Below the pieces are notes generated by a model that did no database searches, was not told the DNA's origin, and saw only the letters and a list, made by a program, of their open reading frames with translations. Source: Sycon ciliatum (lineage: Eukaryota > Porifera > Calcarea > Leucosolenida > Sycettidae). Taken from it: a stretch of 64,000 bases of DNA. Within the stretch, counting starts at the first letter, position 1; every line of letters begins with the position of its first letter. Below, piece by piece: positions 4,579-48,116 of this stretch. The stretch is taken from NCBI RefSeq assembly GCF_964019385.1, contig NC_088645.1, positions 19,652,680-19,716,679 on the forward strand, written 5' to 3'. The translations under genes were made by a program, and so were the position numbers.

Positions 4579-7401
4579 ATGATTGCCAGGGTTCTTCACG
4601 GCACCAGCGCCCTGCTAATCGCTATCAGTAAGTCATGTATGTAGTTCTGGATGACAGTCTAGACTTCTTTAGCTGCTAGGAAAGATAATAATTGTGAACG
4701 TTTGGATGCAGATTAGTCGAACAGTGCATAGTGTGCCTCATTAACGCAAGAGAAAGCAAACTTGCCCCAGAAAGATTTCTCTGACTTCTTGGAGTCGCGC
4801 AAGATGATCCTCAGTGGAATTGAAAGAGCCAAATGACAAACAAAGGCAAGAAAGAAATTTCGAATGGCCCGTATCAACTAATATTCTGTTTGTCTGTAGC
4901 CTAAGACAGTGCTAGGTTCATGTTTAAAGATCGTGCTGCTCACTCGCTACTTTTTCATTATTATTATTATTATGGCTACAGGTCTGTGTTTGTCTCCATC
5001 GCTTGGTGCCATATTGCGAAACTGTCAACCAGAAGATGGAAAAATACAAACATATGGCGATACTGTATACGTCCAGCCAGCAAATGATCCTTCAACTCTA
5101 AGTGTAAGGGCTGGGGAAAACCTCTACAAGAAGCCGTTCATCTTCACATCACCATGCGATGTATCATTCAAGGCTATTTCTCTTCTGTACTACGGAACAT
5201 GCTCTGTATCAGTGAGTTATGGAAGCGATGACAGAGTTCTTGATATGCTTCAATTTCCAGATCTGCGGACCCCTAACTGGCATCGTAGAAACGTGAGCTT
5301 GACCAATGCGGCTTCCGAATCGCTTCAAGTGATCATGAAAAGCAATAATACGAGCAGGTTCCTGATCACGATTTCCCCTGGTATATCTAATTGTGAATTA
5401 CATAAAGTCGACCACACAGCAGCAAGAGGATTGATCATCATTGGACAGGGTAAGCAACTGAATTATGGTATTTCCCAACATTTATTTTCCTCAGAACTGC
5501 TCAAGGATATCTTTTAAAAATGTGATGTCTGTTTCCGCGATGGACACGAAGTAGATTGAAGGTCAGAGCACAGCCTATCATTCAATAGAGTTGCCTTGGC
5601 CCGACATACATGTTAGTTCATTTTGATCTGATATTCTCCTTTCGTTTATTTTCAACTGTATCCTTTCTCTCTCTCTCATCTTGTTTCTCTCTATTTCTCC
5701 CACCATCTCTCTACATCTCTCTCTCTCTCTCTCTCTCTCTTCTGTCTTCTCTTGCTCTCTTCAATTATTTGTGCAGCACATATTAATGTGACTTACCAAA
5801 TATAGCTTATGGTCCTTCGGACTTCTATGACGTGCCTGCATTTTATCTGCAGTCCCCTCGTAAAATAACCTTCAGTCTCCTCTCAATGCTGGGTGTTCTC
5901 TGCAGTTATTCCAACGTCTATTTCTGCAAGCACTGTCCCCAGCACTGCTAAACCGACCAAATTAGCTTCTAGCCGTTCCACACAGCAGTCGACTGCCTCT
6001 AAAGTACCAACTCCAGTCACGACAGTTACGACCACACGCTTAGTGGCTTCAACTAGCACCAAGGGCACAACAGTTCAGACCACTCCGCTGTTGCAGTCAA
6101 CTAGCGCAACGGGCAGCTCTATTCCTCAGATCAAGATATCTGCTTCACCAACAGGCAAAATGGAACAGAATGACGGTGACTCGGTTGGATTTAGTTTAGT
6201 TACTAGCATTGTTATTCCCCTGGTTTTACTGGCTGTTCTGCTAGGCGTTTTTATTCTGATGTTATTGGCTAGGTCAGGAATCTTTTTCTCTAAGAGCAGT
6301 CATCCGTGGATTATTGCTGTTGGTAGATCAACCGGCCCCAAAAATATGCCAGACCCGAGAAATCAGTTTTACCGGAATCGCGATGGTAGTGACTGCGTTG
6401 ACCAGAGTCCTGCGGCCGAACTGAGGAATCCCGGGTTGTATTCGTCTGTTGGACCTGGGTACGGCAATCCAACCAACCATCCCCAGACACCTCCTGATAT
6501 AGCCGCTGCTCATTATGACCGTGTTACAGAGAACGAGTCGTACACGTACGCTACCTGTGATGGTGCTGCTCCGATGGGTTATGGAAATACGGAAACGAAG
6601 CAGAAAGATGCTGGTGAGCCATACGCTAGTGTGCAGTCAATGTTTGATCAACCAGCACAGGAAGTCAAGTCAAATCCGGCGAACAACGAAACACAGGCAG
6701 CTGGATGTGAAAGCTCAGCTCCAACTGTAAGCTACGCAGTTCCTAATAAGCGGAATACAACAGATCTTTGCAGACACTACGAAAAGGCAGAGGAGTGCAC
6801 GGCTACTAAGCGTGATGAAGCACCCAGCACTACAAATTCAATCGAACACATATGTCGTGCTACGGATGTAACATCACTTAGCGTCTTATCGAAGTCCGCA
6901 CAATCAGCAGTAAATAACCAGGATAAGTCTATCAATCCAGATGATGTGGAGCGCAAACAACGCCGTGGTCTGAGTGACGCAACAACAGTAGTATGCCGCG
7001 ATACCACCACCACCACCACCAGCACCAACCCGCAGTCATCTCGCTTATCCCTTCCAGCCACATACACGTCGACACCGGCCGAGTCAGACAGCCAAAGGTG
7101 TGTGTCTCCATCTCCAGTCCCAAAGCCTCTGCCATATCGGGTATTCAAAGTATTGAAGGACAGCCAGTGCGATTACATGAACCCACAGGACACAGTCTCC
7201 AGTCAAGGGGCTGACCAGCCTAATACAGACACAGATCCTAACATATATGCAGAACCAGCCACCTCCCTGAGCGATGATATATTGTGCAACGCATCCACCC
7301 TTGGCAAAAGAGATGAGGTGGGTGGTATCTGCACTGTGCCGCTTGATCTTCCTGATCCTTCTGCCATTTATGCTGTGCCACAGAAAAACTGTGAAACATG
7401 A
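4579..7401 (+). CDS. Gene 1: type I membrane receptor with four-Cys ectodomain and tyrosine-rich tail (3 exons)
   Basis: Exons are 4579-4627, 4982-5449 and 5906-7401. Donors are A|GTAAGT and G|GTAAGC, acceptors are CTACAG and CTGCAG, both introns are phase 1, and the join is 2013 nt (670 aa). Residues 1-26 are a signal peptide. The ectodomain has cysteines at 31, 75, 90 and 154 with N-glycosylation sites (NVS, NTS). Residues 173-250 form a Thr/Ser/Pro-rich, mucin-like stalk. The membrane span is about 268-294, beginning FSLVTSIVIPLVLLAV and ending before R295. The tail of about 375 residues has 14 tyrosines: YSSV 351, YDRV 376, YASV 412, YAVP 449, YMNP 596, YAEP 620, YAVP 661 and others. Such motifs are known SH2 ligands (Nck YDxV, Crk YxxP, Grb2 YxN), so a phosphotyrosine docking receptor is inferred. 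The extracellular fold and ligand are unknown; the ectodomain matches gene 2. Confidence 0.85.
5660..5762 (+). repeat. CT-rich microsatellite in gene 1 intron 2
   Basis: A (CT)n-rich tract with a near-perfect core at about 5711-5741. It lies about 145 bp before the exon 3 acceptor and is probably too far to be its polypyrimidine tract. Confidence 0.8.
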
Positions 7402-7467
7402 AGTATGTTCATCTTTTCAGATCGCAATCGCTTGCTTCTCACCATTTATCATCATTTCCTGTCCAGG

Positions 7468-7473
7468 ATTAAA
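7468..7473 (+). other. Possible gene 1 poly(A) signal (ATTAAA)
   Basis: ATTAAA lies 67 bp after the gene 1 stop codon. It is the commonest variant of AATAAA, but it is short and unsupported by transcript data. Confidence 0.3.
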
Positions 7474-7614
7474 ATTATTGTTGTCCGTGCAGACGACTTC
7501 CAAAATCAATCATTTGTTTCCACGCTTTGTTTCTAAGTCGAATTTCGGAATTACATCAAGTGAAATTATTCACAGAATCTGCACGAACATATCCCCAACC
7601 CTGTAACGTTCTAT

Positions 7615-7979: not shown

Positions 7980-10900
7980 TATACTTTCAGTTTCTCTCCC
8001 CTCTCCTCTCACCCAAGCCATTCTGCATAAGCGAAGCTGTTGACGCAGCATACTGCTGCTACACTTCAACGCGGGAATGCGTATAACGAGAGAGCTTGAA
8101 AGCTCAGGGCCCTGCGCTATGTTGTGTTGCCTAGCTCCTCGTGCATGTTGATAGAACTGATGGAAATGCTTTTTCCTTTGATTAGCTACATCATTGTATG
8201 GCAAAAACGTTTGAATGAGATACTGAAGTAACGTCTTCTGCATAGCTATGGGACCGGCGCTGACTCTGCCGATCACGGGCGTTCTGGAGTCGACGGGATG
8301 TCTGTCCTGACGTTTCCTGGGACCGGCGCTGACTCTGCCGATCACGGGAGTTTATCTTCTTCTTATTATTATACTGACGGCAACTAACATCCATTCTGAT
8401 TGCATTTACTCGTCTCCCTACTTCGAAGTTCTTTCCAGAAAATCTCCCCATACAGCAGGGAGTCGTTTACATAATATGACTACCTGCTATACATTTACAT
8501 GACTGTATAAACGTTATAATTATTATGCTATCCGCCTACATGCGATTCCCGGGCTGGTCGACAGGCGGCCCAGCCAGCCTGCTAGTGGGATCTCGGCCTC
8601 GCACACAAATCCAGACAAAATGTTACTGCACTGAATGCATTCCCCCCATACACTTCGCATATATACTCATTCTCTTGTTGGTACCGTACTCTTGATGGTA
8701 CGGGACAGGTACGGGATAGCGCTAGGCATGTCGATGGCACAAACAAACAAAAATATTGTGGCCAGCTGTCTTTGCTGGTACGGCACAGTATGGGACAGAT
8801 ACGGGATAGCGCCAGGCGTGACACAAACAAACAAACAAACAAACACACAAACACACAAATACCAAACGAGAGAGCTTGGAAGCTCAGGGCCCTACGCTAT
8901 GCTTTTATGCTTTTTTGCCTTGCTCATCGTACATGTTATAAGAACTGAGGCAAAAGTATTTGCAGAATTTATTGCGGATTGTTATTTCTCTAATAATCAT
9001 CTACTTTTGGTTTGCTTCTTCTTTTCTTTTTATCTCCTTATACTGTAAATCAACAAATTTTGGCCGATGAGATATAGAAACCTTTCTATTAAAGAGGTTA
9101 AGATGCACGTTATTTCTGACGTGACGCGCAATTTCACGTCAAATTTGAAATCGTTCGGGATTTTTGCTCTCAAATGAATCAATTGCTCAATCATGCATCA
9201 TTTGCCTATGACAAATTTTGGCCTGCGATTTACTTTGGCCGCTTGGTACCAAGCGGCGAAATCAGCGAAATTAAATCGCAAGCGAAAATTAGTTGATTTT
9301 AATACAGTAATCGGATTTTCTGGCCTTTTTGAAGTAATACATGTACATTGACCTGTTGAGCCAATGACGACGCCTAATGCATGGTTGCCTGTGGAGCACA
9401 TTACATAACTTAGCAGTCTCCTAAAATACGTATCCTGTCCGACGGCAAAAGAGTCTGCAGATTTAGTTTTTCTGCGCGTCGACCGGATGTCTGCGACGCG
9501 AAAGTTCAGCTCGCGTTATTTGGCTCGCACGTCGAAAAATCAACGCAAGTGACCTGCTGCTCACGTGGAAATTTGGACATTACATAACTTTACAGCCTCC
9601 TATAATACGTATCTGGCAAAAGACGCTGCAGTTTTAGTTTTTCTGCGCGTCGACGGAATATCTGTCCTGACGTTCACTGGGACCGGCTTAGACTCTGCCG
9701 ATCACGGGCGTTCTGGACTCGACGGGATGTCTGTCCTGACGTTTCCTGGGACCGGCGCTGAATCGCTCGTTCACGCTTATTTTGGAGACGACGGGATCTC
9801 TCTTCCAAAGTACATGTATGTTAATGCGGACGCATCCTATCACCTATTCGGCGTCTATTCTAATTTAATTTCCTCCTCGTCTCCCTATTTCTTTCCAAAT
9901 CTCTCTCTACATCAGGGAGTCGTATACATAATACGACGAATATTGGTACGTTACAGGACAGATACAGGAGCCCGCAAATATTGTGGACAGCTGTTATGTA
10001 CAATCCTGTAGAGCCTTTGTAGTCACAGATACGGGACAGATACGGGACAGCTACGGGATAGCTCCAGCCGTGATACAAACAAACAAACAAACAAACAAAC
10101 AAACACCAAATTAAAGCTGTGTGGACCCTGGCTAGCGCCAGACGTTACTGAAGTAACGTCTTCTGCATAGCTACGGGAATTAAAGCTGTGTGGACCCTGG
10201 CTAGCGCCAGACGTTACTGAAGTAACGTCTTCTGCATAGCTACGGGAACGAGAGAGCTTGGAAGCTCAGGGCCCTACGCTTTGCTTTTATTGTAAAAAGG
10301 CCAGAAAATCCGATTATATGGAGATAAAAAGGAAAAGAAGGAGCAAACCTCATATTCAAACTGATTGAAACGTTTTTGCAATACAATGATGTAGCCAATT
10401 AACAGATTTGGCTTTGTTTTTCTTTCCTTTCTTTCTTGTTTTGAATTGTATGTTGAACTCATTGGATTTCTTTGTATTCTGTATCTTGTTATCGTTATAT
10501 TTCCCTCTAGCCCTCTTGCTTAGGATGAGCTTTCTTTTTTTATGGCAGCTTAAGCGAAGGCTATATACCTGCTTTATGCAGGTTGATGCCAATGCGAACA
10601 AGCAAAATAATAATAATAATAAAAAAGCCAATTAAAGGAAAAAAACATTTCCATCAGCTCTAGTAACATGTACGATGAGCTAGGCAAAAAATGTCCTGAT
10701 GTCTGTCCTGACGTTTTCTGTGATCGGCGCTGACTCTGCCGATCACGGGCGTTCTGGCCTCGACGGGATCTCTCTTCCGACGTTTCCTGTGACCGGCGCT
10801 AAATCGCCCGTTCACGCTTATTTTGGAGTCGACGAGATGTCTGTCCTGACGTTTCCTGTGACCGGCGCTGACTCTGCCGATCACGGGCGTTCTGGACTCG

Positions 10901-11630
10901 ACGGTATCTCTCTTCCGACGTTTCCTGTGACCGGCGCTGAATCGCCCGTTCACGCTTATTTTGGAGTCGATTCTGCGTCTGTCCTGACGTTTCCTGGGAC
11001 CGGCGCTGACTCTGCCGATCACGGGCGTTCTGGAGTCGACAGGATCTCTCTTCCGACGTTTCCTGTGACCGGCGCTAAATCGCCCGTTCACGCTTACTTT
11101 GGAGACGACGGGATCTCTCTTCCAAAGTATCTGTCTTCTAAAGTCTGTTTTTGCTGATTCATCCTATCACCTATTCCGCAACTAGCGTCCATTCTAATTT
11201 TATTTCCTCCTCGTCTCCCTATTAATTTTCTTTCCAAATCTCCCTCTATATCAGGGAGTCGTATACATAATACGACGAATATTGTGGCCAGCTGTTATGT
11301 ATAATCCTGTACAACCTTTGTAGTCACAGATACGGGACAGATACGGTAGCTCCAGGCGTGACACAAGCACACAAACAAACAAACACCAAATCACAGATAT
11401 TTTTATTGGACAGATACGGTAGCTCCAGGCGTGACACAAACCGACACACACAAACAAACAAACACCAAATTACAGATACGGGACAGATACGGGACAGATA
11501 CGGTAGCTCCAGGCGTGACACAAACACAAAAACACACAAACACACAAACACCAAATTAAAGCTGTGTGGACCCTGGCTGGCGCCAGACGTTACTGAAGTA
11601 ACGTCTTCTGCATAGCTACGGGAATAATAA
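7980..11630 (+). repeat. Modular repeat block (recurs inverted at 57.1-61.4 kb)
   Basis: Several conserved modules appear in varying combinations: (i) 69-bp minisatellite units; (ii) a flank containing GGGAGTCGTATACATAATAC; (iii) GGTACGGGACAGATACGGG-type runs followed by GTGACACAAACAAACAAAC; (iv) AAAGCTGTGTGGACCCTGGC joined to a palindrome ACGTTACTGAAGTAACGT; (v) GAGAGAGCTTGGAAGCTCAG. All recur at 57.1-61.4 kb and 63.9-64.0 kb mainly in reverse orientation. No transposase or coding domain is visible. The class is unknown; an old non-autonomous element or a composite of several is possible. Confidence 0.7.
10690..11125 (+). repeat. Alternating A/B 69-bp minisatellite, about six units
   Basis: Two related 69-bp monomers alternate. 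Type A contains TCTGTCCTGACG and GCCGATCACGGGCG; type B contains TCTCTTCCGACG and CGCCCGTTCACGCTTATTTT. They share GACGTTTCCTGTGACCGGCG. Shorter arrays lie at 8240-8345 and 9650-9800, and an inverted one at 60735-60870. Because 69 is 23 codons, the array is open on both strands (10699-11157 + and 11091-10660 -), which follows from periodicity and does not by itself imply a protein. Confidence 0.85.
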
Positions 11631-12034: not shown

Positions 12035-12103
<69 letters not shown>

Positions 12104-13754: not shown

Positions 13755-13867
13755 CCCTGCACGATGACTTGAAGATGACGGTGAACGGAGAGTCCCTGAA
13801 CCTACCCGATGCCTCTGTACACTCCAGCTCTATTGTCGCCGCATATCGCTTTGTCAGCTTCGCATCC

Positions 13868-15633
13868 TTACTCCGACGCAGAGTGTACAGCGCCCTCATG
13901 CGCGCGTCCCCAACTCGATCGAAGAATGTGCCATTTGATGGACTGGCACTTTTTCCACACCGTAGGAAGGTAGTGGAGGCGTAAGCCAAAGCGTTTGCGA
14001 CTGCCAATAGAAAGAATGGCAGAGTTTGCGCATCGAGGTAGGCCTGACCATTTCTTCAGAAATGGTAAACACATAAAGTGCAGTTCACGTACAAAACCTT
14101 GTGTGAGTTCAAGAACCTGGAAAGACCAAGAAAGCTTGGGCACTACAAGATGGTGGTAAAGCCATAGCTTGTGGTGGTCTTGAAGTCAAGAGCCATCTAC
14201 TTTTTGCATGAGAGATACAGTGAGTTGACGGATGTCTTCCCGCTGGGTCTGCTCAGAGCAATCAGCATGCAGCCTTCGCCCCAGGAACTTGAACTCTGCA
14301 GTGTCAATGAAAGCGATCTTCCTCCCTGACATTGTCAGGCAGGGATCGTAAGGTTTGTACCGGCCATCTACAAGCTTTGCTGCACTGCTTTTGCATTTGT
14401 GCGGCGCCGCCTGCATACATTGGGTCCACGAGAGAAAGTCCTCCGTGACCGCATGAGTTTTTAACAACCTGCACTAGATTTGCTATAGAGGCCTAAGTCA
14501 TCAGCAAAAGCTGTTTGGGACACTTGCAAAGGGGCAGATTTAAAATCATAGGAGAGGCAACTTAATTCAGGGGCTGCAAGTGAGTCCATCAGAAGCTGGA
14601 AACAAATATTGAAAAGGACCGGGGACAAGGGGCACCCCTGGAAAACACCAATGTTGTAATTAAAGGTGGGGGTGTGTGGTTGTACGACAAAAGCGCAAAG
14701 ACTGTCGTAGTAGGAAAAAATTAATTTCCTGAATTGCAAAGGAAGGCTGTAGTGGGTTAGAGCATACTGTATCAGATTGTGGCGCACTGAATCAAATGCA
14801 TTCTTCAAATCTATCCACGCAATGCAAATTTGGCGTTTTGCCCTCTTTGCATCACGCATCGCCTCATAACAAAGTGATGTATGCTCTAAGCACCCAGCCT
14901 TTGCAGGCATAAATCCTTTCTGGTTGTCACCATCGAAGAACTTATTGCCTAGCATATGTTTCAAGAGGCGCTTTGCAAGTAAGGTGAAAAAGATCTTCCC
15001 GGACGTGTTCGCTAGAGCAATCGGTCGGAATTTCGAAGGATCATCAGACACCTCCCCCTTGGCCAGGAGTGTGATACACGCTACCTGCCACTGCCTTGGA
15101 ATGATCTTGCTCTCCCAAACCCGCGCAAAGATGGTGAAAAGAATGGATTGAAGGGAGGGACAAGGCTTCCAAACTATGTAAGGTATCTTGTCAGGACCCG
15201 GTGCAGAGGTGTTGCGACACTTCTTCAAAACATTCTGAAATTCAGTCCATGTAGGGGTCCCCTCATCGACTGGGTGGGTGCAAACCCGGGGCTTCCCTGC
15301 ACTGGGGCAGGATTCGTACGAAGTGGCACGATCCTGGTCTGCATATGTGTGTTGGAAGTACTCAAAGCAGGTAGTGTCAGAGAAAGTGGGTTTGACATGG
15401 TTGGTTGGTTGAAACAATTTCTTTCCGAACGCATATGGGTCCTTGAGAAAGGCATCCTGGTCCCTCTTGTTCCGGGATCGATCGTCGTACATCTTTTGTT
15501 GTTTTAAAAGACGCTTGATTTGTTTTCCAATTGAAAAATACTCATTTCTGAGCGCTGCAGGTACTTCGTCCGGGTTTTTGATCTTACGAAATTGGCGCTT
15601 TAAATCACGCCTGTGAGCCCGGAGTTTTTCCAC
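13868..15633 (-). pseudogene. Reverse transcriptase of the R2/HERO-like element, frameshifted
   Basis: The main frame (15633-14461) holds the RT core: APGPDKIPYIVWK, FRPIALANTSGKIF, ICIAWIDLKNAFDSV (catalytic Asp), GVFQGCPLSPVLFNICF and TAFADDLGLY (the catalytic FADD box, a variant of YxDD). The next frame (14467-14186) continues with FLSWTQCMQA and FKFLGRRLHA. A third (14143-13868) has LKKWSGLPRCANSAIL and GLRLHYLP, typical of the thumb region. At least two frameshifts are needed, so the copy is dead. Confidence 0.82.
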
Positions 15634-15753
15634 TGCACGGTTTTTATTTGCACTCTTGTGTTTTGGTGGAGGTGGTGGTGGTTTCTGGTCGAAAAATCAG
15701 TGAATGAAGTTCTCTAGTTTGTCCAGAGTCTCTTCGATGTTAGTGTTTTTGAG

Positions 15754-23575: not shown

Positions 23576-23659
23576 TACTTCCGCTTGTTTACTCAGGAGA
23601 CTACAACAGTTGGAAATACATATTCGGCATGCTTTTTGCTTCGGAGATCCCCGGGGTTC

Positions 23660-28700: not shown

Positions 28701-28710
28701 GCGCCAGAGC

Positions 28711-31080
<2,370 letters not shown>

Positions 31081-35031: not shown

Positions 35032-38000
35032 ATGGCACAGGCCAGAGTGCTACTGCATCGTCAGTCTACAAATCCCGCACACTGTCTACTGGCACTGCTG
35101 TTAATCGGAGGTGAGATGCTTCTGGTTGGTTGGTTGGCGGGTTTTTATTTCACTTCGCACATTCAAACGGGAGGACGACCCAATAAAATGATGGCGAAGG
35201 CTTAGCTTAGAAGTGGCTATGGAAGAACATAGTAAAGGCTATGGAAGCACATAGTAAGAGAGTAGGATACTAATAACTGCGAGTAAACGGGGGGGGGGGA
35301 GGGGAGAGAATACAATGTATCTGTGATACTACGTGAGGATCACTGAACTGCACGGGGAGGGAGAGCAGAGCGATTAGCAGCAACTCGAACTACTCCCTAC
35401 AGGCGTGTGGTACACATGCATGCTTAAACTCAGGGAGCCGGGTAATTGTGCGGACCTCACCAGGGAGAGCGTTCCACAGCAGAGCACCAGCAACAGAAAA
35501 TCTCCGCTGACCGCGGCGGCTACGGTTTGCCTGGCTCAGTAGGCCATTTGACTGCTGATGGCGGGTAGGGGTGCCTTGTGCCGGGGTAAGAAGCTGGGCG
35601 AGCACAGGCCAAGGCATCTTCTCGACGTCATCAGAAACTGGAATTCGACGCGATATCGGGCAGTGCGTCGGAGTCGCTACGACATGTCATAGACGTCGCG
35701 AAGGAGAAAGGGTCGTCGAGCTGGCTGACGTGCCGTCAACTTAAGAAGTATCATTTTAATTTATCAAAGGGAGAGTTTTGGGACGGACTCTGCCTCCGTT
35801 ACGGATGGACACCGGCCAGGGTACCGTCACACTGCTCTTGCAGCCAAGAGGCAACTGTCGCGCATTCCCTGTCGTGCCACTATGGAGGGTTTCCCTCCAT
35901 TAGACACAATGGTATTCGGGACGTCACGGCCCGGGTGCTGGACGAGGTGTGCACCAGTGTGTCCATCGAGCCCTTGCTGCAACCGCTGACGGGGGAGCGT
36001 CGTCGCTACCGGACCGCAAATGTGGAAGACCGTGCCAAGTTGGATGACGGTGCCAATGGTTTGTGGGGCAGTCGTTTTGAGCGTACACTTACAGTCAACT
36101 TCGCTAATAACGACTGCGGATATAACGACAATTCGCGAATAACGACCGAATTTCCATGCCCAGAGCAAAGTCCCATCTAACTGTATACATTTAACTTCGG
36201 ATATAACGACTATCTGAATAACGACAATTCGCGTATAGCGACATGCTTTTAGTGCCCCGTGGTCATATTCACTGCTTGAATAACGACTTTCTGGGCTTTT
36301 GACAGCTATTTCAAGTACCTGTCAGTCAAGTACAGTCATGTACCTGTCATGCAGAAGTACCAGAACCTATGGTGCACTGGTGATGGATATTATTGCACAC
36401 ATGCAAGAAAATGCAGCCAAGGGGGGGGGGGGGCTTTTTCTTCCTTTTTTATGTTGGCTTCAAAATTGTTGGATTTACCAGCACACCTATATGTATACAA
36501 TGTACATGTAGTTGCACATGATTGTACAGTAATCATCATACATGTACATATCTCTGGCCCTGTAGATGGCTCAAAAAGGCATATTTTTCAATTGATTTCC
36601 CTTGCATATTGAATTTTTAGTTCCTTTCAACTGCTATGAAAATAAAGTACACATTGACATAGAGCAAGAAAAGACCTTGATTTTGATATGCATATCATAC
36701 TATACAAAATATGGGTCACATACATTCAAATGGGACTTCGGTTATAAGGACACTTCGCGAATAAGGACACTTTTCTGATGCCCCGCCGAATGTCGTTATT
36801 GGCGAAGTTGACTGTATTGATATTATTATTTTACGCATTCCCGCGTTGAAGTGTAGCAGCAGTATGCTGCGTCCAGAGCTTCGCTTATGCAGAACTTATT
36901 GATATATGGGTTTTTAATCCTCACTCATGCTCAAATCGATCTGCACCACATACTATTGTGTGTCAGCGACATGAAAAAGAAAAGAGAAGGCACTATGAGG
37001 AGCGGGTGAGGCAGGTTGAGCAAGCCTCCTTTGTTCCGGCGGTCATGTCAGCCAGTGGCGGAATGGGTTCAGCATCAACAGCACTGTATAAACGAATTGC
37101 TCATCTGTTGACTGAGAAGAGGGGTGAGCCTTACTCTCATGTTATGGCATTTGTTAGATGCAGGATTTCCTTCAGCCTTCTGAAATCCTGTATCATGTGC
37201 ATTCGCGGTTGTAGGCGTTTAAATTTTAGTGTGAAATTTGCACCCTCCTGCGGAGCCCACGCTGCTTTGATGTGGCGGGGGCTCGTTTGCCGACGTAACC
37301 GTCGGAGAACATCATGAACAATGGACTGACCAATTATTCACTTGTCCTGTCTTTATAAATAACATGTTATAGCACAGGGCTGGTGCGGGCGTGGATGCAC
37401 CGCCAGATGTGATCAATATTTTTTGCCTGTAGAGCTCGCTGACACGGTACAGGGAGTGAGCAGTGAGCAGCGGCTGCATGGCTGTCCGGGGCGGGTTGCC
37501 ATCGATACAGCGGATGGCTCTGTTTTGCGCGGTGTGCATTCGTTTCAGTTGACCCTCTCGCATTGCGGCTGAAAGGCAGCAGGAGCCATAAAGCAGGTCG
37601 GGCATTATGACCGCCTTTACATCACCTGACGAGACCGTCTTGATAGGCTTCGGCGTGCCCGCCACAAGGCGCCAATTTTTTTGGCAACCTTGGTGACCAC
37701 ATAGTTTACATGGGTGTCCCAATCTAGGCGATTGTCAAGGTGAACGCCGAGGTAGCGCGCAGAAGACGCTGAAGGCAGGAGACAGTCGCCGCTTTTGACT
37801 GTTACTTCCTGTACATGCTGCTGGGGAGAGATAGTCAGAACCTGGCTCTTGGCGGCGTTCAAGATGAGGCCTCGGGACTTCAGCCAACCGGCCAGAGCAG
37901 TTGCCGCTGTGGTGAGGGTTCTGGACGCTTCCGCCGCTGAGGCCTGGGAGTCGTACAGGGCTTTGTCATCTGCAAATTAAAAAAAGATGTGAGCGAGTAT

Positions 38001-41000
38001 AGTACAGGCAAGTTTGAGTTTTTTTATCTCTGTAGGTTTTCGTCATTTTTTCGCAGCCCACCCGGCATCAGGCCGGAGTGGAGCCCTTAGGAGCTAGGAG
38101 TCGTAGTGTAGTGTAGAGTAGGTGCTAGTTTCAGTAGCTGTCACTCCCTGACCTACTCTCCGCCATGGACGAGCTGGCAGCTGAACCCCTGAGACTTCTG
38201 TGCAGTCTGCCAGGCATCGAAGCCAATGTCCTCAGCTTGATCCAGCAATTGTCGTCGTATGTAAGTGAGTCTAGAGATCGAGAGGAATGCGTGAAACGGC
38301 GTGTGGATGAGCTATGTACACACGTTTCAGAGTTACGAGGCGAACTGAGCTCCTTGAAGCAGTCCGCCATTGCCCATGTCGACCAACAGCAACAAAAAGG
38401 CGAGGAGGTCAAGGAGAGTGCATCTAGTAGTACGTCACAAGAGTACCCGTACTAGCATTGGAAAGTCTAAGCCGCGCGCAAATAGTGAAAACAAGCCAAA
38501 GCAGCAGGCAGAACACGTGGGAACGCACACTGAACTCGGTACCCGTAGCGCTGCCACACCCTGGCACACAAGCATGCCCTCAGTGGACACGGAAACTGAG
38601 TACAATGTCATGTGCGCTAACGCAGAGGGTACTGAGCTCCTGCCAGTCAAGAACTCCAAGCCTGTGTTCAGCACCATTACGGACGACTCTTGGAAGTTGG
38701 TCTCTGCAGGACCACCCAAGGCCAAGCGCTCTGTTGCCTACGTGGGCAACATCTCCCCAGATTGCACAGAGGGCCGCCTGAAACAGTTCATCATGGACAG
38801 AAGCGAACAGGCATTGTCAGGCTCTTCCATTCCCGTGCATACCTGCAGTGTACATGTAGGAGAGAGTGGACGAGTATCAGCCAGAGTCACTGAAGATGCC
38901 ACCTCCATGCCTATTGTGACTGCCCCCAACTTCTGGCCTAGGCCTTTGTACTGCCGACCGTGGCGCCTCTCCAAAAACCCTGGCGGAAACCGCAGCAGCA
39001 ACAGCGAAAACAGCAGCAACAGCGAAAACAGCAGCAGCACCGACAACAGCAGCAGCAGCAGCAGCAGCAGCGACAACAGCAGCAACAGCAGCAGCAGGAA
39101 CAACAGCAGCAGCAACAGCAGCAGCACCGCAGAATCTTCCGCACCACAGGCAAACACCACTGGCAACGCAAGCAGTGCAGATGAAAGGGACAGTGAGGAT
39201 GGGAGCTCTGCCGATGCCGGTACCTCGAGTCGGACTCCAGGGATGAAAGCTCGCGCCCACCAGCGAGATTCACCACCTGCAGACCAAGCAGCCAAGTATT
39301 CTGTTTCAGTTGGCAATGCGTTTGCACCCCTCAGCCGGTAATGACCAACAAAACGCACCCTTCGCCAGCTCAACCCATCAAAGGCAACCGGGCCGGATAG
39401 GATACCGGCACGAGTGTTGAAACCCTGCTCTGCTGAACTGGCGCAACCGCTTTCCATACTGTTTACCCAATGCTTCCAAACTGGAATACAGCCCAAGACA
39501 TGGAAGATTGCCAACATAGTTCCTATATTCAAACGGAAATCAAAGTCTCTACCCTCCAATTGCCGTCCAGTTTCGCTCTTGTGTATTCTGTCCAAGGTGA
39601 TGGAGACAATCATCAACAGAACAATCACAAATTTTCTCGAGTCGAACAGCGTCTTCTCCACCACACAGTTTGGATTTCGCCATGGTCATAGTGCAGCTGA
39701 CCTCCTTACCAGCCTCCACCACCAATGGCTGCATACAGCCGGGGGAGAAAGGTGCAGCACGCATACTCGCCATTGACATCGCTGGTGCGTTTGATCGCGT
39801 ATCACACCCCGGTGTGCTACACAAGTCCGACGTATACGGTCTGCGTGGGTAACTGCACCAGTGGCTCAGCAGCTACCTCAGTGAACGCTACCTTCAAGTG
39901 GTCATTTGTGGCCAGACATCCGCAAGGCTCCCAAGTCAGGCTGGAGTCCCCCAGGGCAGTATTCTGGGTCCGACTCTCTTCCTCGTGTACGTGAGCGACT
40001 GCGAGGACCACGTACCAGCCGGTGCTGACCTAGCCTCGTTCGCAGACGACACTACGCTGTATGCCAACATCACCCCGACCACCCAAGAAGATACCACCCG
40101 AGCCCTCCAGCTAGCAGTCAACAACATCTCCGGCTGGGGTCAAGAATGGAAAATAAAATTTGAACCCGCCAAATCCCAGGCACTGACTGTCAGCTTCCAC
40201 CGCACCCAATGGGACATGCCACCGATTGACTTCAACGGATCCAATTTGACGGAACAAGAGGAGCTCAAAATCTTAGGCATCAGTTTCGATGGTCAGCTTA
40301 CCTTCCGGCGCCACCTTCGTAACGTAGCCCTCCGGGAAACACAGTGACTTGGCGCTTTGTGTAAGGCTTTCCACCTCCTAGACGTGCCCGGTCGCATCCA
40401 AGCCTACAATGCTTTTGTGCTCCCAGTGATGGAGTACTGTCCTATTGTCTGGATGGGAGCGGCCCCATCCCATCTTGCAAGACTCGACCATGTGCAAGCC
40501 CGTGCCATCGCCCCAATGTGTTGGCTGCCGAGTCTCGCTCTTCGTCGGATGGTTGCAGCACTTTGCCTCCTGTACAAGATGCATTGTCTGGATGCACATC
40601 CCCTTCTACAGAGGAAGCTGCCACCCCAGCAGCCCCAACACCGAACAGTCCACTCCACCCGTAGTACATTCCAGAGATGTAATGCTCACGCACACCAACT
40701 GGCCAATGAACTTCCAGTCCGTTCCCGAAAAAACCTGTGTCGAGCCTACCCTCATGCAGTTGTCCCCGTCTGGAACCAGCTGCCCGCCGGAGTCTTCTCT
40801 GGTCCATTCTGCACCAAGAACTTGCAACACTTCAAAGTTGCAGCCAACCGCTATTTGAAGACCGACGACTGGTGGTGGGCACATGACCATCTCTGATTAT
40901 CAGCATCATATCTGCCTCACCCCATGACTTCCAAATTCCGCTACACATACTATTCCCAATAGCGTCTGTTCTTCTTCTCTCTCCTTCTCCTGCTAGAACT

Positions 41001-43957
41001 GTCAGTCTTATCCTTCCCCTCCTTCTATTGTACGGTCTCTCCTCCTAACATTTCCTATCATGTACCTGTCACTCCTTTTATTTTTCCTTTGTTTTTTGGT
41101 GCGTTTTATGTCCCCATGACGTCGAGACCTCCAGTCGGCTGAGAGCAAAAGCCTCACCATCACTATGCTCCCACTATGCAATTTGTTGTCTTTGCCTGTG
41201 AGCTGTGATCATTGTAAAAAATAAAAAAATAAAAAAATTGAGCAGGGCTGGTTGAAGGCGAGATGAGGATCCGCTGCTTGCGGCCGGACAAGTAGTCGAC
41301 GAACCAACTAAGGGCTTTTCCAGAAATTCCAACCGCAAGGAGGTCTTGGATTAACTTGTCGTGGTGCACTTTATCAAAATCCTTCGACATGTCTAGTAGG
41401 CACAGCCCTGTGGTCTTGCCACTGTCTTTCGCCTTCTGCTGATTATCAATCAGCACACAGAGGGCGTCTTCCGTAGAACATTTCTTGCGGAAGGCAAATT
41501 GTGTTTCGGGTAATGCCTTGGTCAAGTCCAAATGACGAACTAACTGGTGTAGCACTACCCTCTCCAGCAACTTGGACACTATTGGAAGAAGGGATACCGG
41601 TCTATAGTTGGTGGGGACTGATGGGTCACCAGCATTGTACAGTGGCACGACAGACGCCCATTTAAATGCAGATGGAATGGTTCCAGTCCTCAGCGAGGTG
41701 CAGAACAGCACAGCAAGAGAATATGCAAGCAAGTCAGCACACTGCTGTAGCAGAGAGCCCGGTATGCCGTCACTACCTGCGGCTTTCCGCGCATCCAACT
41801 TCTCAAGGAGACGTCGGACGTCTGCAGGAGTCACAGGATCAAGTTCGGTCAAGGAGACGGGTCCAGCGGGACCGTGCGGGGTGCAGAGTTGTTCAGGACG
41901 GTTGGGATCGGTGACAATGGAGTGGAACGTGTCGGCCACCTCACTGATGCTACAACTAGGATTTTGGCGGTGACGTAAACGCCCAGTGACTGCATTAATG
42001 GCCCAAGACTTCCTAGGGTTGGCCACATTTTCTTCGCACTGACGGGAGAAGTACTCGTTTCGCTTGCGCCGATACGCATTCCGAGCAGTGCTACGTGCTT
42101 GTTTGAACTGTGCATACAGTGTGCCGTTTGTCCTATCCTTCCGCCAACGGCTGTACAGCCGCCGTTTACGCTGTTCGAGCTGGTGCAGCTCTCTGTCAGA
42201 CCAGGGAGGTATCGCCCTCCGGGAAGGCTTAGAGTTGTGCAGAGGGGCATGCTTGTCCAAAACGTACAGGAACTTAGTGTGCCACTCTTTCCACATGCGA
42301 TTTACATCATTGTGATCCGAGAAATCATGTAGAGAAGCCTCAAGGATATCTTGCCAAAAAGAGGTAATGTCAACGCCACGTATATTCCTGGTCAGCCGCG
42401 ACGTCGTGGATGACGAGGGTGGAACGTCAACGGCAAGCTGAATAAAGGCTTCCACAGCGCTGTGGTCACTAATATCAGTGGGCACAACCGTTGCTAGGGA
42501 CACTAGCGCCTGGTTGGTCAATATGAGATCGATCATCGTGCCTTCAGAGCACTGTGGAGTTTCACGGGTCGGCTGCGTGACGATGTTCTGGAGACCAAAC
42601 GCACCACAGAGGTCGGTGAGGTGTTTGTGCTGGGGTGCGGGATGGCCTGGGACCATATTGACATTAAAGCTTCTTTATCGAGTTTATGTATTTATTTGTT
42701 AAACTCACTGTCATAGGATATGGAGTAGCGGTAACGGCATTATGTTGAGGAACCCCAGAGATGAGGGTCATAGAATGGTAAAAGTGACAAAAAAATTAAA
42801 ATAGACCGAATGGAACAATGAGGCAAGCTTATCAATGCATCTAGCTAGATCGATAGCATCTTAGATATTTCTGTTCATAAGTCTCATTTTCATTTCGTTT
42901 CTCACGGTTTTTACCAAGTACTGGTGTCGGGGATGGCAGACTATGATTGACTTTGGTCATTCTGCCTCGCGTTTGCCCAAGGTTATGTATAATATTATTG
43001 CACCGCACCAGGCAGAGGCCATCTAGGCCACCTTGATCATGCTCGATTTGTAGTTGTGCCTGATGGCATCAGTGACTTCCCTACCTGCGAACATAGATAA
43101 AGGTACCAGGAGGTTTTTGGCAAACCTCTACAAGCATTCATATCCATGACGAGGCATATTGAAGGGATATGCTTTATAACAATCCATGAACACACCCGGC
43201 ACAGACCACCACGCATCGTTCGTTGTCTACCGAGCCGGAGGACTCTCATTTGTAACAATCAATGAGTCGTCTTTCTCCCGTTTAGCACCTTTCTCTCAAA
43301 CCAGTGGAATATTTTATGTGTCCTCTTTGCTTTTGTTCAGGGTTGTGTGCTGTTTCAGGCAACAGCATATGCACTCCTGAATCAGGTCATTTGCAGTTGG
43401 CCCAGCGAAGCCCGTCAAAACCAATTGTATATCCACCAAACCCTAAGATCACGGATCCCAACGGCACGGATGTTGTGTGGACGTTCAACTTCAGCCACGA
43501 ATGCACGCTCCTCTTAGAGAAGATAGAGTTTTCCTTCACTGGTGCTTGCAAATTTCAGCTACATAATAGCGAGGTTGGACTGGAGGACATATCCGTACGC
43601 ATGGCAAGCGGGTGGGAATTAACTACCATCGATGTGAATGAACGCACCGCCAACATGATGGGCGAACCAAGGGACACAAATGATGGCAGTCGATACTTTA
43701 CTTTCACCGCCAAAAGGAGTGAGTCGGCTGGATGTAACGTTAGCGGGGTCGTGTTGCGCACTGAAGGTAAGCAGCAGTGGAGTAGTGTAGATTGCTAATA
43801 GCTGTGACCATGCACAACACTTGTTGTCGTTGTTGTCGTCGTCATCGTCGTTGGCGTCGTCGTCCTTGTCGTCGTCGTCGTGGTTTTTATTGTTGTTGTT
43901 TTTGTTGTTGTTGTTGTTGTGGTTGTTGTTGTTGTTGTTGTTGTTGTTGTAGTTGTT

Positions 43958-44056
<99 letters not shown>

Positions 44057-44072
44057 CTTGTTGTTCTTGTTC

Positions 44073-44120
<48 letters not shown>

Positions 44121-44147
44121 TTGCTTGTGTTGTTGTTGTTGTTGTTT

Positions 44148-44188
<41 letters not shown>

Positions 44189-47100
44189 GCTCTTGTTGTT
44201 GTTGTTGTTGTTTGAAATATTTTATTCTCACGATGGCCTGCGGCCAATAAGAGAAGTTTCAAATCTTTATTCTCACGATAGCCAGTGGCCAATAAGAGAT
44301 AATAGTGTAAGAAAGGAGAAAGAGTGAGGAAGAATTGGGTGGGCAGAGCCTAGGGGTTAATGACTACTTTTAAAGTGTACGGGCAGGGGTGCCTGGGGTG
44401 GTCGCTACACGAGCATACAGAGTTGCGTACTTAAGTGTACGGGCAGGGGTGGTCGCTACACGAGCATACAGAGTTATGTACTTAAGTATACGGGCAGGGG
44501 TGGTCGCTCCAGGAGCATACAGAGTTGTGCAACAGCAGGGGTATCTGGGATTTGAAGGGAGTACGAGAAGGTATTTCGCGAAGCTGGGTGGGCAAGCAAT
44601 TAAAGTAATGAAGGGCCTTGTGCAAGGGAGAATGGAGACAGTGGTCAGTCCGCGGAGTTGGCAAGTGCCAAGTACGAGAGCGACGTAAATAGACCAATCC
44701 CGAAAAGATTGTCTTGGTTCGTGAAAGGGGGCACGCGTGCAAGTCAGCACGTGTGAAGTGCATCGTTTTGTATTCAGTTTGTGTGTGTCAGCTCATGGCG
44801 GAGGAGAGAGAGACTTTTGCTCGCCGAGCTGAAGCTAAAGGATTTGATGGAGCTAGTCAAAGGACCTTCGGTACCTTAGGTAGACCCTGACGGAGTTTGG
44901 AGGCCAGATAGCTCTCGGTGAGGAGAGAAACATTCGCGTGGTGATCGACTCTCCGTAAAAAATGCAAGCTACATAGCGCCGACATACTGCAACAGCCACG
45001 ATTTCAGCTAACTTCTTGAGCTGCTGCTTCACAAAGTTCAACTATTCACAAGTCCTGACTGTCGTAGTCTGAAGCTGGAGTCTCATCGCCCACCTACAGG
45101 TAGCTTTTGGAGCTGATGGATTTCCCGACTTGTGGAGCTATTTAGGGGCTTTGAGAGCCCCTTGTCGATACCTCTAATGACTTTGATCTTCGGTTTTTAT
45201 AGGTTTCCGCAAGCTGTTGACAAAGGAAATTCGTACAGATGAAAGAATCCGGGAGGCAAAACCGTACACACTTCTGAAATGCGTAGCTTTTAGTAGTACA
45301 CCGTACATTTTATGCAGAGTTCACTATCTGCACCGTACTATAATGCATACATGGAGTTGCACGCACCAGTTTAAAGTACAGTGTATATTCAGAGGGCTTT
45401 AAACCAATCCAAGGCCCCCGACGCGTCATCAAGAGTAGTAAAATAACGATTGAGTGGGCTTTAAACTCTGATAAGGCCCTTGGCGGGAATGTCGCTGATT
45501 GGTCTTTTCCTGGACAACGAGACAGAACTCGTTCTAAGTTAACTTACAGGTACGCGCGAAATAGCAAATATACGAAAGGAAAGAGTACTGCATAATGTTC
45601 TGTATAAAAGGGTAATATTCGAACTTAGCAGGACGCGTTAATGACGTGATAAGCGGAGGTAACAGCAAGAGTAGAAATGTACCCAAGACGTGCTAGAGTT
45701 GATGGCCAGTTCGTTGTAGAGAGTCAGTACTGTTCCTTCGTCCTTTTCTTTACTATCAGTGGAAACGTGTCAATGTTTTACCGTCTCTCCAATGTCATCT
45801 AATTCATACAAGTACAGTAAATGCTGCACCCTCAACCCAGCGGAATCCTGTGTTACACGGACAAATTGTCCATGCACCAAAGTGTTGTGGATCGAATGTG
45901 AATGCCTGAATCAAGCAGAACCCTGTGATATCAGGACAGTTTCCGCTGCACCAAGGGGTGATCGTTAGTGACAGGTTATACTTTACCTGCATTATTGTGA
46001 AAACAGTGGGGACATGGTAAGGCATCGAAAAAAGTGTTTTACTCCGTTATCAAAAATATATCTCCCATAAATAATCAATCTCCGTACTGCTAGCTGTTCC
46101 GTCTATAATAGGTCTTATCCCCGAGCTTAGTGACTGGCCAAACCTTTAAAAAAACATCTACTTCTCCGCGTCAACGAAATTGTCGCAGTTTGACTAGTGA
46201 CTTGTCACTTGGTACTGACAACTCCATAAGCGAAGCCATTCAAAACTTATTACACAGTATGATAGTCTGAAGACTAGAGTAACGTTCCAGGACAGTTGGA
46301 CTGAGAGGTTTCATGCAGAGATGAAGTCCTCGTAGTCGCTGATGTCAATGGACGCAAAAATATCGTTCCGAAATATTTCAAGGAAGGTTGAAAGTTGGTC
46401 GCGCCTCATCTCAAACGCTTTGACTTTCTCCACAGGACAAGAGCTGCTATGCTTGTCGTCTGCTAGCTCTGGATGATTTCTACTTCACCACCAACGAAGC
46501 CTAGTAAGAATACACGATCGTTGCGAGGTCGGTTGATTACCGTCGGCGAAATCACCTCGATCTTGAAAAGAACATTTTTTAGCCGAGGCATGCCCATTTA
46601 TTTTACCGTAGCTGTGTGGTCACAGCTCATGCAGGTAAGTGTACTATCACGTCCAGCGCGCCCTCTTTTTCAGCATCACTGGTGTACCATAGTACGGCAC
46701 CTGCGCGTGCATCACTAGCAATACGTGTAGAGTCTACACGGCTCTTGCAAGTACAATCATGTACTGAGTGTCTCAGCCAGAGCGACAAATTTTATCGCTG
46801 TTGCAGGCAATTAGTTTGCTGACCCCTCGATGTTTCTCCAAGCCCTGCCACTTGTTCCACGAAGTCATTCTCACCCCAGCTAAGGTAAAACAGTGATGAG
46901 GCTTGAGTGAATGGCCATAAGCACGAGAAATGTGCAGGCTTCAACGCCTGACTGATCTCAGCGAGTCGAAATTACCATCGCAGCGACACCAGCGAAGAAA
47001 TTGCGTCTAGTTCAAAAATTCCCGCTTTCAATAACAGAAAATAGAACTTTGCCGTCACCCTATACTGATGACTATCGCCTATGTCCGATTCCTTGCCTCT

Positions 47101-48116
47101 GGTACGAGTGCTGGTGAGTAAATACCCCGTTTTATATCAAAATTCAAACTGCGACAATTTCGATGACGCGGAGGAAGTATAAAGCAACGTACTTTTAACG
47201 CTCAGCATGTCTACTGTATTGCTGATAGTTATTCGAAGATCTCAGGTGTACTTTGTTTGGTTGAAAAAAAAATTTTTTTATCATCGTGTCCGTTTCCGAA
47301 GGGAACTCATGACGTCCGCTAACACCCGGTAAACCCTAGCGGCAGATGCATCGCCTAACGGTGGGGGTGAGTGGATAGATCTCACAACCACAAGCACAAG
47401 TGCCGAGAAACCCCATTAGCTGCGTTCATGTACCCCTTGTGCCTGGCCGCAAGTTCCCAGTTGACTGTAGGTTGCAGCACAGCTGGAAAACCACTCCCAG
47501 GCAGGACTTAATTAAAGCAGGTACCTTTCGTGCCTTTAATCATGGTCTTTGGCCAACCCACTGTGCCTGCCTGGTCGAGGTCTGTTTGGTAATTATGATC
47601 TACAAATCACAATTTACCAAACAAAGTCCGAGTTGGTTGACTTACAACTTACGTTGCTGCATGACATCTCGATGTTTCTCTGCGTCATCTCATCCTCATT
47701 TTATAGATGTTGACGAATGCAAATCCATGGGACAAAGTGATACACTTTGTCCATCGAACAAGGAATGTGTCAACATGATTGGGACGTACGGTTGCTGCAG
47801 TAGAGGCAGAGATCGGGAAGACGCTGATAACTTGCCTCTTGTCACGGATAACCACCATTACCGTCCGTGTGCTTCGCAGACCACTGCATCCATCACAGAA
47901 ACAAGACCTACATTCAGAGTTCGGACAATCGGTGCGAATGACACACATGTCACTAGCGCCATTGCGATGCAAACGATGGACACTATTGCGTTCTGGCACC
48001 AGCATACCATAGCTGCCGTTGCCATATCTTGCTCTTCCGTTGCACTGTTCGTAATTGTGCTTTTAGCTATATGGCAAAGGGGTTATCTTAGCAACTCTGC
48101 CACGGGATTTGTCTGA
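35032..48116 (+). CDS. Gene 2: short-tailed membrane protein with four-Cys domain and cbEGF-like module (3 exons)
   Basis: Exons are 35032-35110, 43341-43766 and 47707-48116. Donors are G|GTGAGA and G|GTAAGC, acceptors are TTCAG and TATAG, both introns are phase 1, and the join is 915 nt (304 aa). Exon 1 encodes the signal peptide (hydrophobic CLLALLLIGGLCAV across the join). Exon 2 holds cysteines at 37, 81, 96 and 158: C1-C2 is 44 and C2-C3 is 15 residues apart, exactly as in gene 1, and C3-C4 differs by two. Exon 3 begins DVDEC, the start of a calcium-binding EGF module, with CVNMIGTYGCC, but the cysteine pattern is irregular (adjacent CC, distant last Cys). The membrane span is about 269-291, with a 13-residue tail and no docking motifs. 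It may act as a decoy, adhesion or co-receptor partner of gene 1. Exon 1 is linked to exon 2 by phase and signal-peptide logic only; intron 1 is 8.2 kb and full of retroelements. Confidence 0.72.
35130..35640 (-). pseudogene. LINE 3'-end remnant (RT C-terminus)
   Basis: The minus strand reads RRFSVAGALLWNALPGEVR followed by FKHACV, the C-terminal signature common to CR1/L2-type RT proteins. A 3' UTR lies at 35135-35390 with a run of nine Gs. It lies within intron 1 of gene 2. Confidence 0.6.
36092..36814. mobile_element. Tigger/pogo-like MITE (723 bp) with TA target duplication
   Basis: Termini are CAGTCAACTTCGC.AATAACGA and its inverse at the other end, flanked by TA on both sides. CAGT ends and TA duplication fit the pogo/Tigger branch of Tc1/mariner. 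Subterminal ATAACGAC motifs repeat several times at the left (36107-36242). There is no transposase. An internal G-run lies at 36421-36433. Confidence 0.85.
36824..36896. mobile_element. 73-bp insertion with 9-bp target duplication
   Basis: TATTGATAT occurs at 36815-36823 and again at 36897-36905. The inserted segment contains GCATTCCCGCGTTGAAGTG and GCAGCAGTATGCTGCGTC, found inverted at about 8028-8085. The duplication suggests insertion of a short element or retroposed fragment. Confidence 0.75.
37312..37980 (-). pseudogene. LINE copy B, 3' half (RT thumb to end)
   Basis: Reads inward from the FADD box (FADDKALYDSQASAAE near 37980), then LKSRGLILNAAKSQVLTIS, YLGVHLDNRLDWDTHV, VIMPDLLYGSCCL and QNRAIRCIDG, ending near 37312 (NNWSVHCS). 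A frame change near 37620 is needed. Its 5' half is at 41236-42675. Confidence 0.8.
38165..39341 (+). pseudogene. LINE copy A ORF1: coiled-coil, RRM-like segment and poly-Ser/Asn tract
   Basis: The first frame (38165-38455) starts MDELAAEPLRLLCSLPG and is helical (VKRRVDELCTHVSELRGELSS). After a frameshift near 38380-38455 the second runs to 39341. SVAYVGNISPDCTEGRLKQF resembles an RRM-type RNP2 strand and helix, followed by basic sequence (FWPRPLYCRPWR). A (CAG/AAC)-rich tract at about 38990-39130 encodes Ser/Asn repeats. ORF1 proteins bind element RNA; the RRM call is by pattern. Confidence 0.65.
39350..40896 (+). pseudogene. LINE copy A reverse transcriptase, frameshifted, no endonuclease
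   Basis: RT begins directly in its fingers (LNPSKATGPDRIPARVLKPC) only a few codons after the ORF1 stop; the endonuclease and RT N-terminus, normally over 1 kb, are missing. Then ILAIDIAGAFDRVSH, GVPQGSILGPTLFLVYVSD, FADDTTLYANI, LKILGISFDGQLTF and VMEYCPIVWMG, ending at 40896. A TAA near 39850, a TGA at 40345 and frame changes near 39760 and 39890 disrupt it. Confidence 0.82.
41236..42675 (-). pseudogene. LINE copy B, 5' half (end of endonuclease, RT fingers)
   Basis: The frame 42656-41240 begins in the end of an APE endonuclease (FNVNMVPGHP, TMIDLILTNQALV, ISDHSAVEAF). It continues into RT fingers: AAGSDGIPGSLLQQC, NYRPVSLLPIVSKLLER, QFAFRKKCSTEDAL and GLCLLDMSKDFDKVHHDKL (catalytic Asp), ending at LSGRKQRILISPSTSPAQ where copy A begins. 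The VPQGS box expected next is in neither half. The 5' truncation is near 42675. Confidence 0.82.
42676..43340. other. End of gene 2 intron 1, no other feature
   Basis: Nothing beyond the acceptor at 43340 is supported. Confidence 0.4.
43812..44214 (+). repeat. (GTT)n microsatellite, about 400 bp, in gene 2 intron 2
   Basis: A nearly pure GTT tract with GTC/CTT variants. On the minus strand it is (CAA)n directly following the 3' end of a LINE remnant (44216-), so it is probably that element's expanded tail. Confidence 0.95.
44216..44790 (-). pseudogene. LINE 3'-end remnant with (CAA)n tail
   Basis: The minus strand encodes RTWHLPTPRTDHCLHSPLHK and FNCLPTQLREIP, typical of an RT protein C-terminus. 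The 3' UTR has GGCCACTGGCTATCGTGAGAATAAAG-like tail units (44216-44300). Similar tails lie at 48326-48460. Confidence 0.7.
44378..44530 (+). repeat. 51-bp tandem repeat x3 within the LINE remnant
   Basis: Units begin ACGGGCAGGGGTGGTCGCT; the first has a small insertion (GCCTGGGGTG). On the minus strand they encode three 17-residue repeats at the end of the LINE ORF. Confidence 0.85.
44791..46158. other. Gene 2 intron 2, no feature recognised
   Basis: No exon with a matching phase and domain was found. An unrecognised small exon cannot be excluded. Confidence 0.4.
46159..47179. repeat. Inverted-repeat pair (35 bp arms) about 1 kb apart in gene 2 intron 2
   Basis: TACTTCTCCGCGTCAACGAA at 46159 and its near-inverse ending at 47179 share about 33 of 35 positions. 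The interior is non-coding. This may be a non-autonomous DNA transposon whose ends lie just outside these arms. Confidence 0.6.
47275..47600 (+). repeat. Structured repeat, copy 3 (longest)
   Basis: Carries GTGTCCGTTTCCGAAGGGAA, CCGCTAACACCCGGTAAACC and TAGCGGCAGATGCATCGCC, then a downstream half with CACTGTGCCTGCCTGG. It ends about 107 bp before the gene 2 exon 3 acceptor. Confidence 0.7.

Follow-up and report, generated by a model that had tools for sequence, protein, structure and literature searches.

A one-strand gene array in the calcareous sponge Sycon ciliatum joining four-cysteine heads to differing membrane anchors

Known recognition systems for comparison

A gene array on C3 of the calcareous sponge Sycon ciliatum was analysed starting from two genes, gene 1 and gene 2, in a 64,000-nucleotide stretch (the window; C3:19652680-19716679, + strand, placed by genome search). 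Among described systems, the array most closely resembles in its logic the fester (FF) and fester co-receptor (FcoR) pairs of Botryllus schlosseri, whose proteins carry immunoglobulin (Ig) and sushi domains and immunoreceptor tyrosine-based inhibitory (ITIM), hemITAM, or core tyrosine motifs (PMC12065747). Adjacent and related type I membrane proteins form such a pair: one has no known signalling domain and the other carries a long tail of tyrosine motifs, which is a likeness to the Sycon locus. Tail motifs at some FcoR loci can also be exchanged by alternative splicing (PMC12065747). The Sycon proteins differ from FF and FcoR in their predicted jelly-roll heads and in their Y-x-x-P and Y-x-N motifs.

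The Alr proteins of Hydractinia are likewise clustered type I membrane proteins of an early-branching animal with tyrosine motifs in their tails, but their heads belong to the Ig superfamily and their part in allorecognition has been shown genetically, whereas that of the Sycon set is putative. The aggregation factors of sponges are secreted and proteoglycan-like, whereas the Sycon proteins are single-pass membrane proteins. Aggregation factors are nevertheless sponge self-recognition candidates as well, and a polymorphic genetic system is presumed to underlie the specificity with which sponges tell self from non-self (PMC5450542). Alr tails are also the subject of a remark on ITIM and the corresponding activation motif (ITAM) in a passage of the Botryllus work (PMC12065747). 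In vertebrates, the paired receptors CD300A and CD300C similarly set similar ectodomains on opposite tails; they are Ig-superfamily proteins of inhibitory versus activating output (PMC12447643). No sequence in common with Sycon was found.

One-strand array and exchange of tails

Both genes of the window consist of three exons on the + strand (Table 1), translate into 670 (gene 1) and 304 (gene 2) residues, and have every exon junction in phase 1 at AG/GT sites. Two classes of anchor follow the heads: class Y, as in gene 1, has a mucin-like stalk, a membrane span, and a tail of about 370 residues with conserved tyrosines, and class E, as in gene 2, ends in a short tail after EGF modules and a span. 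The arrangement expected of paired receptors, linked genes with (very probably) homologous ectodomains on opposite tails, was found. The first-pass annotation had taken the two genes for a single receptor pair, which they are not; they belong to an array of many members. Across approximately 0.74 Mb, one strand carries 30 head-exon matches, some of them partial (26 gene-1-type and 4 gene-2-type), as well as 21 near-full Y-tail exons, all genome match counts being lower bounds.

The gene 1 head has 31 genome matches at E ≤ 10, of which 26 reach E ≤ 3e-6 and lie on the + strand of C3 between 19,012,039 and 19,658,127, with gene 1 as the last gene-1-type head of the row; partial or broken heads of this type include L022, L023, and L025. 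The other five matches are weak, namely L027, two pieces of a broken copy at 19104 kb, and two on C1. On the same strand, gene-2-type heads occur at 19348709 (within the gene-1-type array), 19696019 (gene 2), 19731477, and 19749011. The Y-tail exon gives 27 matches at E ≤ 0.001, all on C3 and +, and 21 of these cover at least 340 of 404 residues. Stops interrupt six of the 21, five with one TAG and one with four stops. The seven matched pieces of the gene 2 tail exon represent four copies, each behind a gene-2-type head, and the copy near 19352 kb has stops. A Y-tail exon at C3:19736902 is flanked by two gene-2-type units, and the matches listed include no gene-1-type head in its vicinity; it is either an orphan exon or the tail of a gene-2-type head.

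Within the array, a two-gene block occurs in four tandem copies (L006-L009 and L010-L013; C3:19426321-19558216) spaced about 35-51 kb apart. The copies share at least 99.8% ungapped identity over 3.46 kb, except where L007 is one of the two compared (about 93%, counted position by position, a difference that is indel-like). The block is a recent duplication or possibly an assembly effect; copy number looks fluid because two genes have four mostly near-identical copies.

Judging from the exon sequences, heads in this array are joined to differing tails at phase-1 boundaries and tails have been exchanged. The clearest case among the related proteins (P numbers) is P0005, whose EGF-tailed head is 97% identical to that of the Y-tailed P0002; the two heads group at 100/97 among Y-tailed heads in a tree of 17 rows with the bootstrap not fully settled. 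In its short tail and span, P0005 is instead a relative of P0011 (scores 93 and 89), although the heads of these two proteins are only about 50% identical. Near-identical heads on different tails thus bear out the proposal that exons were shuffled around the head, and this recent swap is between members other than gene 1 and gene 2. The idea that EGF-type short tails are truncated Y-tails was rejected, as their similarity to Y-tails lay within shuffles. Aligning the span of gene 1 with that of P0005 gave a score of 42, without a control.

The exon order of single units adds to the picture. The unit at C3:19487332 (+) comprises a head, a Y-tail exon, and then two EGF exons (19490258-19490389 and 19494203-19494334) and a span/short-tail exon (19494958-19495218). 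As the Y-tail exon precedes the EGF and short-tail exons, alternative 3' ends are possible for this unit. In the P0007 unit, an EGF exon lies 1.7 kb past the Y-tail exon, and the 9.9 kb that follow yield no other match. The P0011 unit shows the EGF arrangement in one short stretch: exons for EGF and for the short tail are present, and the 9.98 kb read contain no Y-tail exon. Near the P0005-type heads at 19370140 and 19582459, about 8 kb were covered without a tail exon being found, so the annotated P0005 model must connect exons that lie far apart; it may be mistaken or may reflect splicing over a long distance. Within the window, no second EGF tail was found for gene 1.

Relationship and fold of the two heads

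The first-pass annotation had proposed a common ectodomain with four cysteines in exon 2 of both genes. Their positions (31/75/90/154 in gene 1 and 37/81/96/158 in gene 2) and spacings (44, 15, and then 64 versus 62) are exactly as claimed, and the agreement in spacing was reached in 68 of 200,000 residue shuffles. The local pattern given for both heads also holds once corrected to F.F...C, 12 residues, and G.C. Almost every member of the gene 1 family has the tryptophan that precedes the last cysteine, whereas in the gene 2 alignment gene 2 alone has it in that position; P0022 and P0023 have LW close to its place.

Direct comparison of the two heads by BLASTP gave 21% identity at E 0.018 (a single comparison). 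Of 2000 shuffles, 1 equalled the global alignment score (53 once the cysteines were masked) and 51 equalled the local score (1600 masked). Family against family, hhalign returned a probability of 75% and a score of 36.2 over 63 columns, whereas 150 column shuffles averaged 12.7 and peaked at 26.1, and the reversed control gave 12.2. Four more sequences raised the score to 37.3, which fell to 15.9 (probability 0.6%) with cysteines masked, inside the shuffles (12.8 ± 2.7), so this first family signal is essentially the cysteine framework. These values, i.e., masked family and local comparisons at the level of noise and a BLASTP E-value of only 0.018, are what would be expected if the heads were unrelated and their cysteine spacing convergent. 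Against convergence stand the divergent cluster members L024, L026, and L027, which have the same cysteine framework and whose addition yielded a probability of 94.3% and a score of 49.7 over 126 columns (60 unmasked shuffles: mean 12.1, maximum 19.3). Masking the cysteines in this extended comparison left a score of 26.7 and a probability of 18.8%, for which the shuffle controls were unmasked only. Searched against the whole genome, the gene 2 head has eight matches at E ≤ 10, four strong and four weak (E 0.14-5.3), and three of the four weak ones fall on gene-1-type head exons, the fourth on C8. Together with the similar predicted topology described below, we consider convergence very improbable and homology of the two heads very probable, on a signal that leans heavily on the cysteines. 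The divergence of gene 1 and gene 2 is an old split.

The mosaic-looking P0004 and P0021 were excluded from the head tree/tail comparison and the extended hhalign run, and the mosaics P0022 and P0023 were kept. P0001 was left out of alignments A1 and A4 and the head comparisons, and P0012 was included in A1 and left out of the head comparisons, as both models are without most of the head. P0004, P0021, P0022, and P0023 read as mosaics of paralogue halves that switch near the C2-C3/SYGSD block, and are either assembly chimeras or traces of conversion at a conserved core.

The heads are predicted to be beta jelly-rolls. The gene 1 model has a mean predicted local distance difference test (pLDDT) value of 84.4 and a predicted template modelling (pTM) score of 0.81, and the gene 2 model 65.1 and 0.62. 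Built from separate alignments and compared by topology, the two models have a similar strand order with a helix ahead of the last strands, and the differing folds that would have spoken against a common domain did not appear. Both land in the general jelly-roll neighbourhood beside carbohydrate-binding modules (CBM). Predicted fold neighbours include CBM29, CBM61, CBM36, a porphyran CBM (8xmz), and the Eph ligand-binding domain, but no sequence relation to these is detectable and the Sycon heads have their own four-cysteine framework. The domain had been described as impossible to place; this is correct for sequence families in Pfam and the PDB, whereas the predicted fold does fall in jelly-roll space. 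At the level of Pfam profiles, CUB, MAM, Ig, FN3, and Eph gave no match in genes 1 and 2 (to E 10), and MAM, CUB, and the Eph ligand-binding domain were not listed for the 12 members of A1 (to E 5). Neither an Ig nor a sushi family was listed by Pfam for the two genes or the 12 members; for all of these families, a relation too distant for the profiles may exist. A PDB sequence search returned nothing for gene 2 and, for gene 1, two rows no better than chance (best E 0.62).

Gene models and other features of the window

The proposed splicing is supported by annotated and transcript-like proteins, and no contrary transcript turned up in this protein-level comparison. The annotated gene 2 protein LOC135812548 (P0015, 304 aa) is 100% identical over its whole length to the three-exon model. 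The annotated gene 1 model (P0001) begins within exon 2, without the start of the head, and exon 1 of gene 1 is backed by the paralogues P0002 and P0003 (100% match over 17 residues). Both P0001 and P0012 start at a Met inside the head exon and have signal-exon matches upstream, and are either truncated models or cases of internal starts. Two EukProt scpid entries, which we take to be Sycon transcript translations, also fit: P0022 joins the residues of gene 2 exon 1 to a gene-2-type exon 2, and P0006 is a single chain that runs from a gene-1-type head through stalk and span into part of the tail. The exon boundaries agree with the phase-1 start and end proposed for exon 2 of both genes. The stalk of gene 1 (residues 172-266, 41% S+T) and its span (~274-292) are as first described, as is the long tyrosine tail. 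For gene 2, the layout of a cbEGF-like module, span, and short tail stood, with a tail of about 14 residues (13 in the first-pass annotation) and an EGF module below the curated cut-off of Pfam PF07645 (23.2 bits against 27; E 8e-5). The same profile is listed for its paralogue P0016 and for P0005 and P0011.

Table 1. Exons of the two genes and other features of the window
Feature	Position	Strand	Description
Gene 1 exon 1	4579..4627	+	49 nt; start codon and signal peptide; ends in phase 1; donor GTAAGT
Gene 1 exon 2	4982..5449	+	468 nt; four-cysteine head; phase 1 at both ends; C3:19657663
Gene 1 exon 3	5906..7401	+	Stalk, membrane span, tyrosine-rich tail, stop; paralogous exons elsewhere in the genome
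Gene 2 exon 1	35032..35110	+	79 nt; signal peptide; ends in phase 1; identical in P0015 and P0022
Gene 2 exon 2	43341..43766	+	426 nt; second head type; phase 1 at both ends; C3:19696019
Gene 2 exon 3	47707..48116	+	One cbEGF-like module, spacer, membrane span, tail of ~14 residues
Retroelement piece	1230..2159		DUF1759 match 1233-2159 (presumably gag-like)
Tandem repeat	10702..11141		69-bp period; downstream of gene 1
Retroelement piece	14461..15696		Reverse transcriptase match 14464-15696
Retroelement piece	20756..23659		Reverse transcriptase match 20759-23170; endonuclease match 23174-23659
Retroelement piece	28702..29448		Reverse transcriptase match 28702-29445
Retroelement frame	38358..40896	+	First intron of gene 2; recognised by eye only
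Retroelement frame	41163..42674	-	First intron of gene 2; reverse transcriptase match
GTT-repeat array	43800..44215		Long; just past the gene 2 head exon
Retroelement piece	54525..54956		Reverse transcriptase match 54525-54953
Inverted arms	61501..62143 / 63208..63850		643 nt, 99% complementary; flank and overlap the frame at 62019
Open frame	62019..63242	-	Weak GIY-YIG match (E 0.0035, below cut-off)

Retroelement pieces are scattered through the window, and two such frames occupy the first intron of gene 2 (8.2 kb). The open frame near the end of the window looks, with its inverted arms, like what we would call a Penelope-like element.

Tyrosine tails, selection, and possible roles

The gene 1 tail contains 15 tyrosines, with five Y-x-x-P and four Y-x-N motifs, numbers equalled in 0.8% and 1.0% of shuffles, respectively. 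A motif scan that covered ITIM and ITAM found no match in this tail. The short tail of P0005 has one ITIM-like match, and that of gene 2 has one tyrosine. Across 12 paralogous tails, EPYASV and VxY(A/S)VP are present in all 12, and IYA(E/K)P and AIYAVP in all 10 of the tails that reach that far. The contrast of a signalling and a non-signalling protein drawn by the first-pass annotation thus holds for the opposite tails and fails for ITAM or ITIM; because neither was matched, a signalling role of gene 1 rests on the conserved Y-x-x-P and Y-x-N motifs. Such motifs recruit Crk- and Grb2-type SH2 domains.

Selection was examined by Nei-Gojobori counts within two groups (30 head pairs, 20 of them with tails too). 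The ratio of nonsynonymous to synonymous substitution (dN/dS) was 0.30-1.40 for heads, with 26 of 30 pairs within 0.43-0.70, and 0.36-0.81 for tails; among the young heads P0007, P0009, and P0010 it was 0.69-1.40. Tails are more identical than heads (78% versus 56%; higher in 28 of 28 pairs). Synonymous divergence (dS) is greater in heads than tails in 18 of 20 pairs (for P0008-P0019, 0.649 versus 0.160), the exceptions being P0007-P0009 and P0007-P0010. Because tail dS is lower, tails look younger or homogenised among older heads, a pattern that favours modular exchange and speaks against constraint alone as the cause of tail conservation. The evidence for selection is weak.

The sequence shows the modules, the array, a probable homology of the heads, and an exchange of tails. 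The most likely reading of these, to which we give about an even chance, is a recognition-receptor family with paired-receptor logic. The family would consist of type I membrane proteins in which a signal exon, a jelly-roll head, and a class Y or class E anchor are joined in phase 1. The heads may bind ligands on other cells or microbes, and the jelly-roll fold class takes in many glycan-binding domains. Ligand binding would cluster class Y receptors, Src-type kinases would phosphorylate the Y-x-x-P and Y-x-N sites, and SH2 adaptors of the Crk and Grb2 types would be drawn to the phosphorylated sites. Class E proteins would show the same kind of head without the Y-tail and thus may act as decoys, ligands, or co-receptors, most likely in a setting of self/non-self or microbe recognition. 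The EGF tail of P0005 is an annotation and not an observed transcript. Selection on ectodomain diversity is not generally shown by dN/dS, and the notion that tails are conserved as heads diversify is weakened by the lower tail dS in 18 of 20 pairs.

The head dN/dS values, mostly below 1, would also suit cell-surface mucins and EGF proteins of structural or adhesive function (epithelial coat, mesohyl, or spicule-cell attachment) in an array shaped by neutral birth and death, as would the stalk and EGF modules, which are common in adhesion proteins, and the automatic names mucin-like and fibrillin-like. We regard this as rather unlikely, given that 10-12 paralogues conserve many tyrosines in their long tails and that tails were exchanged between near-identical heads. 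A term search of the main text of one Sycon biomineralization paper also found none of the words mucin, scpid, or LOC1358.

Protein searches identified 23 different related proteins, of which 15 are named Sycon ciliatum, 5 are EukProt scpid entries, and 3 (P0013, P0014, and P0018, from one 46,658-base contig) come from ENA. These searches reach only proteins with exact 5-residue words in common (in one search, the 7,996 best candidates were scored), and every relative that they returned with an organism name is from Sycon, other sponges and cnidarians not having been searched one by one. No publication describing the family was found in open-licence PMC text. Such restriction to Sycon, with the raised dN/dS among young heads, could point to gamete or sperm-choanocyte recognition, a role we consider improbable because large copy number and long tyrosine tails are less usual for gamete proteins.

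Returning to the recognition-receptor reading, a more specific form of it is that the array is a self/non-self locus with splice-switchable units, in which one polymorphic head exon is spliced to the Y-tail or past it to the EGF/short tail. Quite unlikely as this form is in our estimation, splice switching would, if it holds, yield a receptor and a decoy of the same specificity from one gene. To our knowledge, no self/non-self receptor has been identified in calcareous sponges, and the array provides a concrete candidate set for them. Its heads form a family outside Pfam profiles, and paired-receptor logic has apparently been reached here without recognisable Ig heads or ITIM/ITAM tails.
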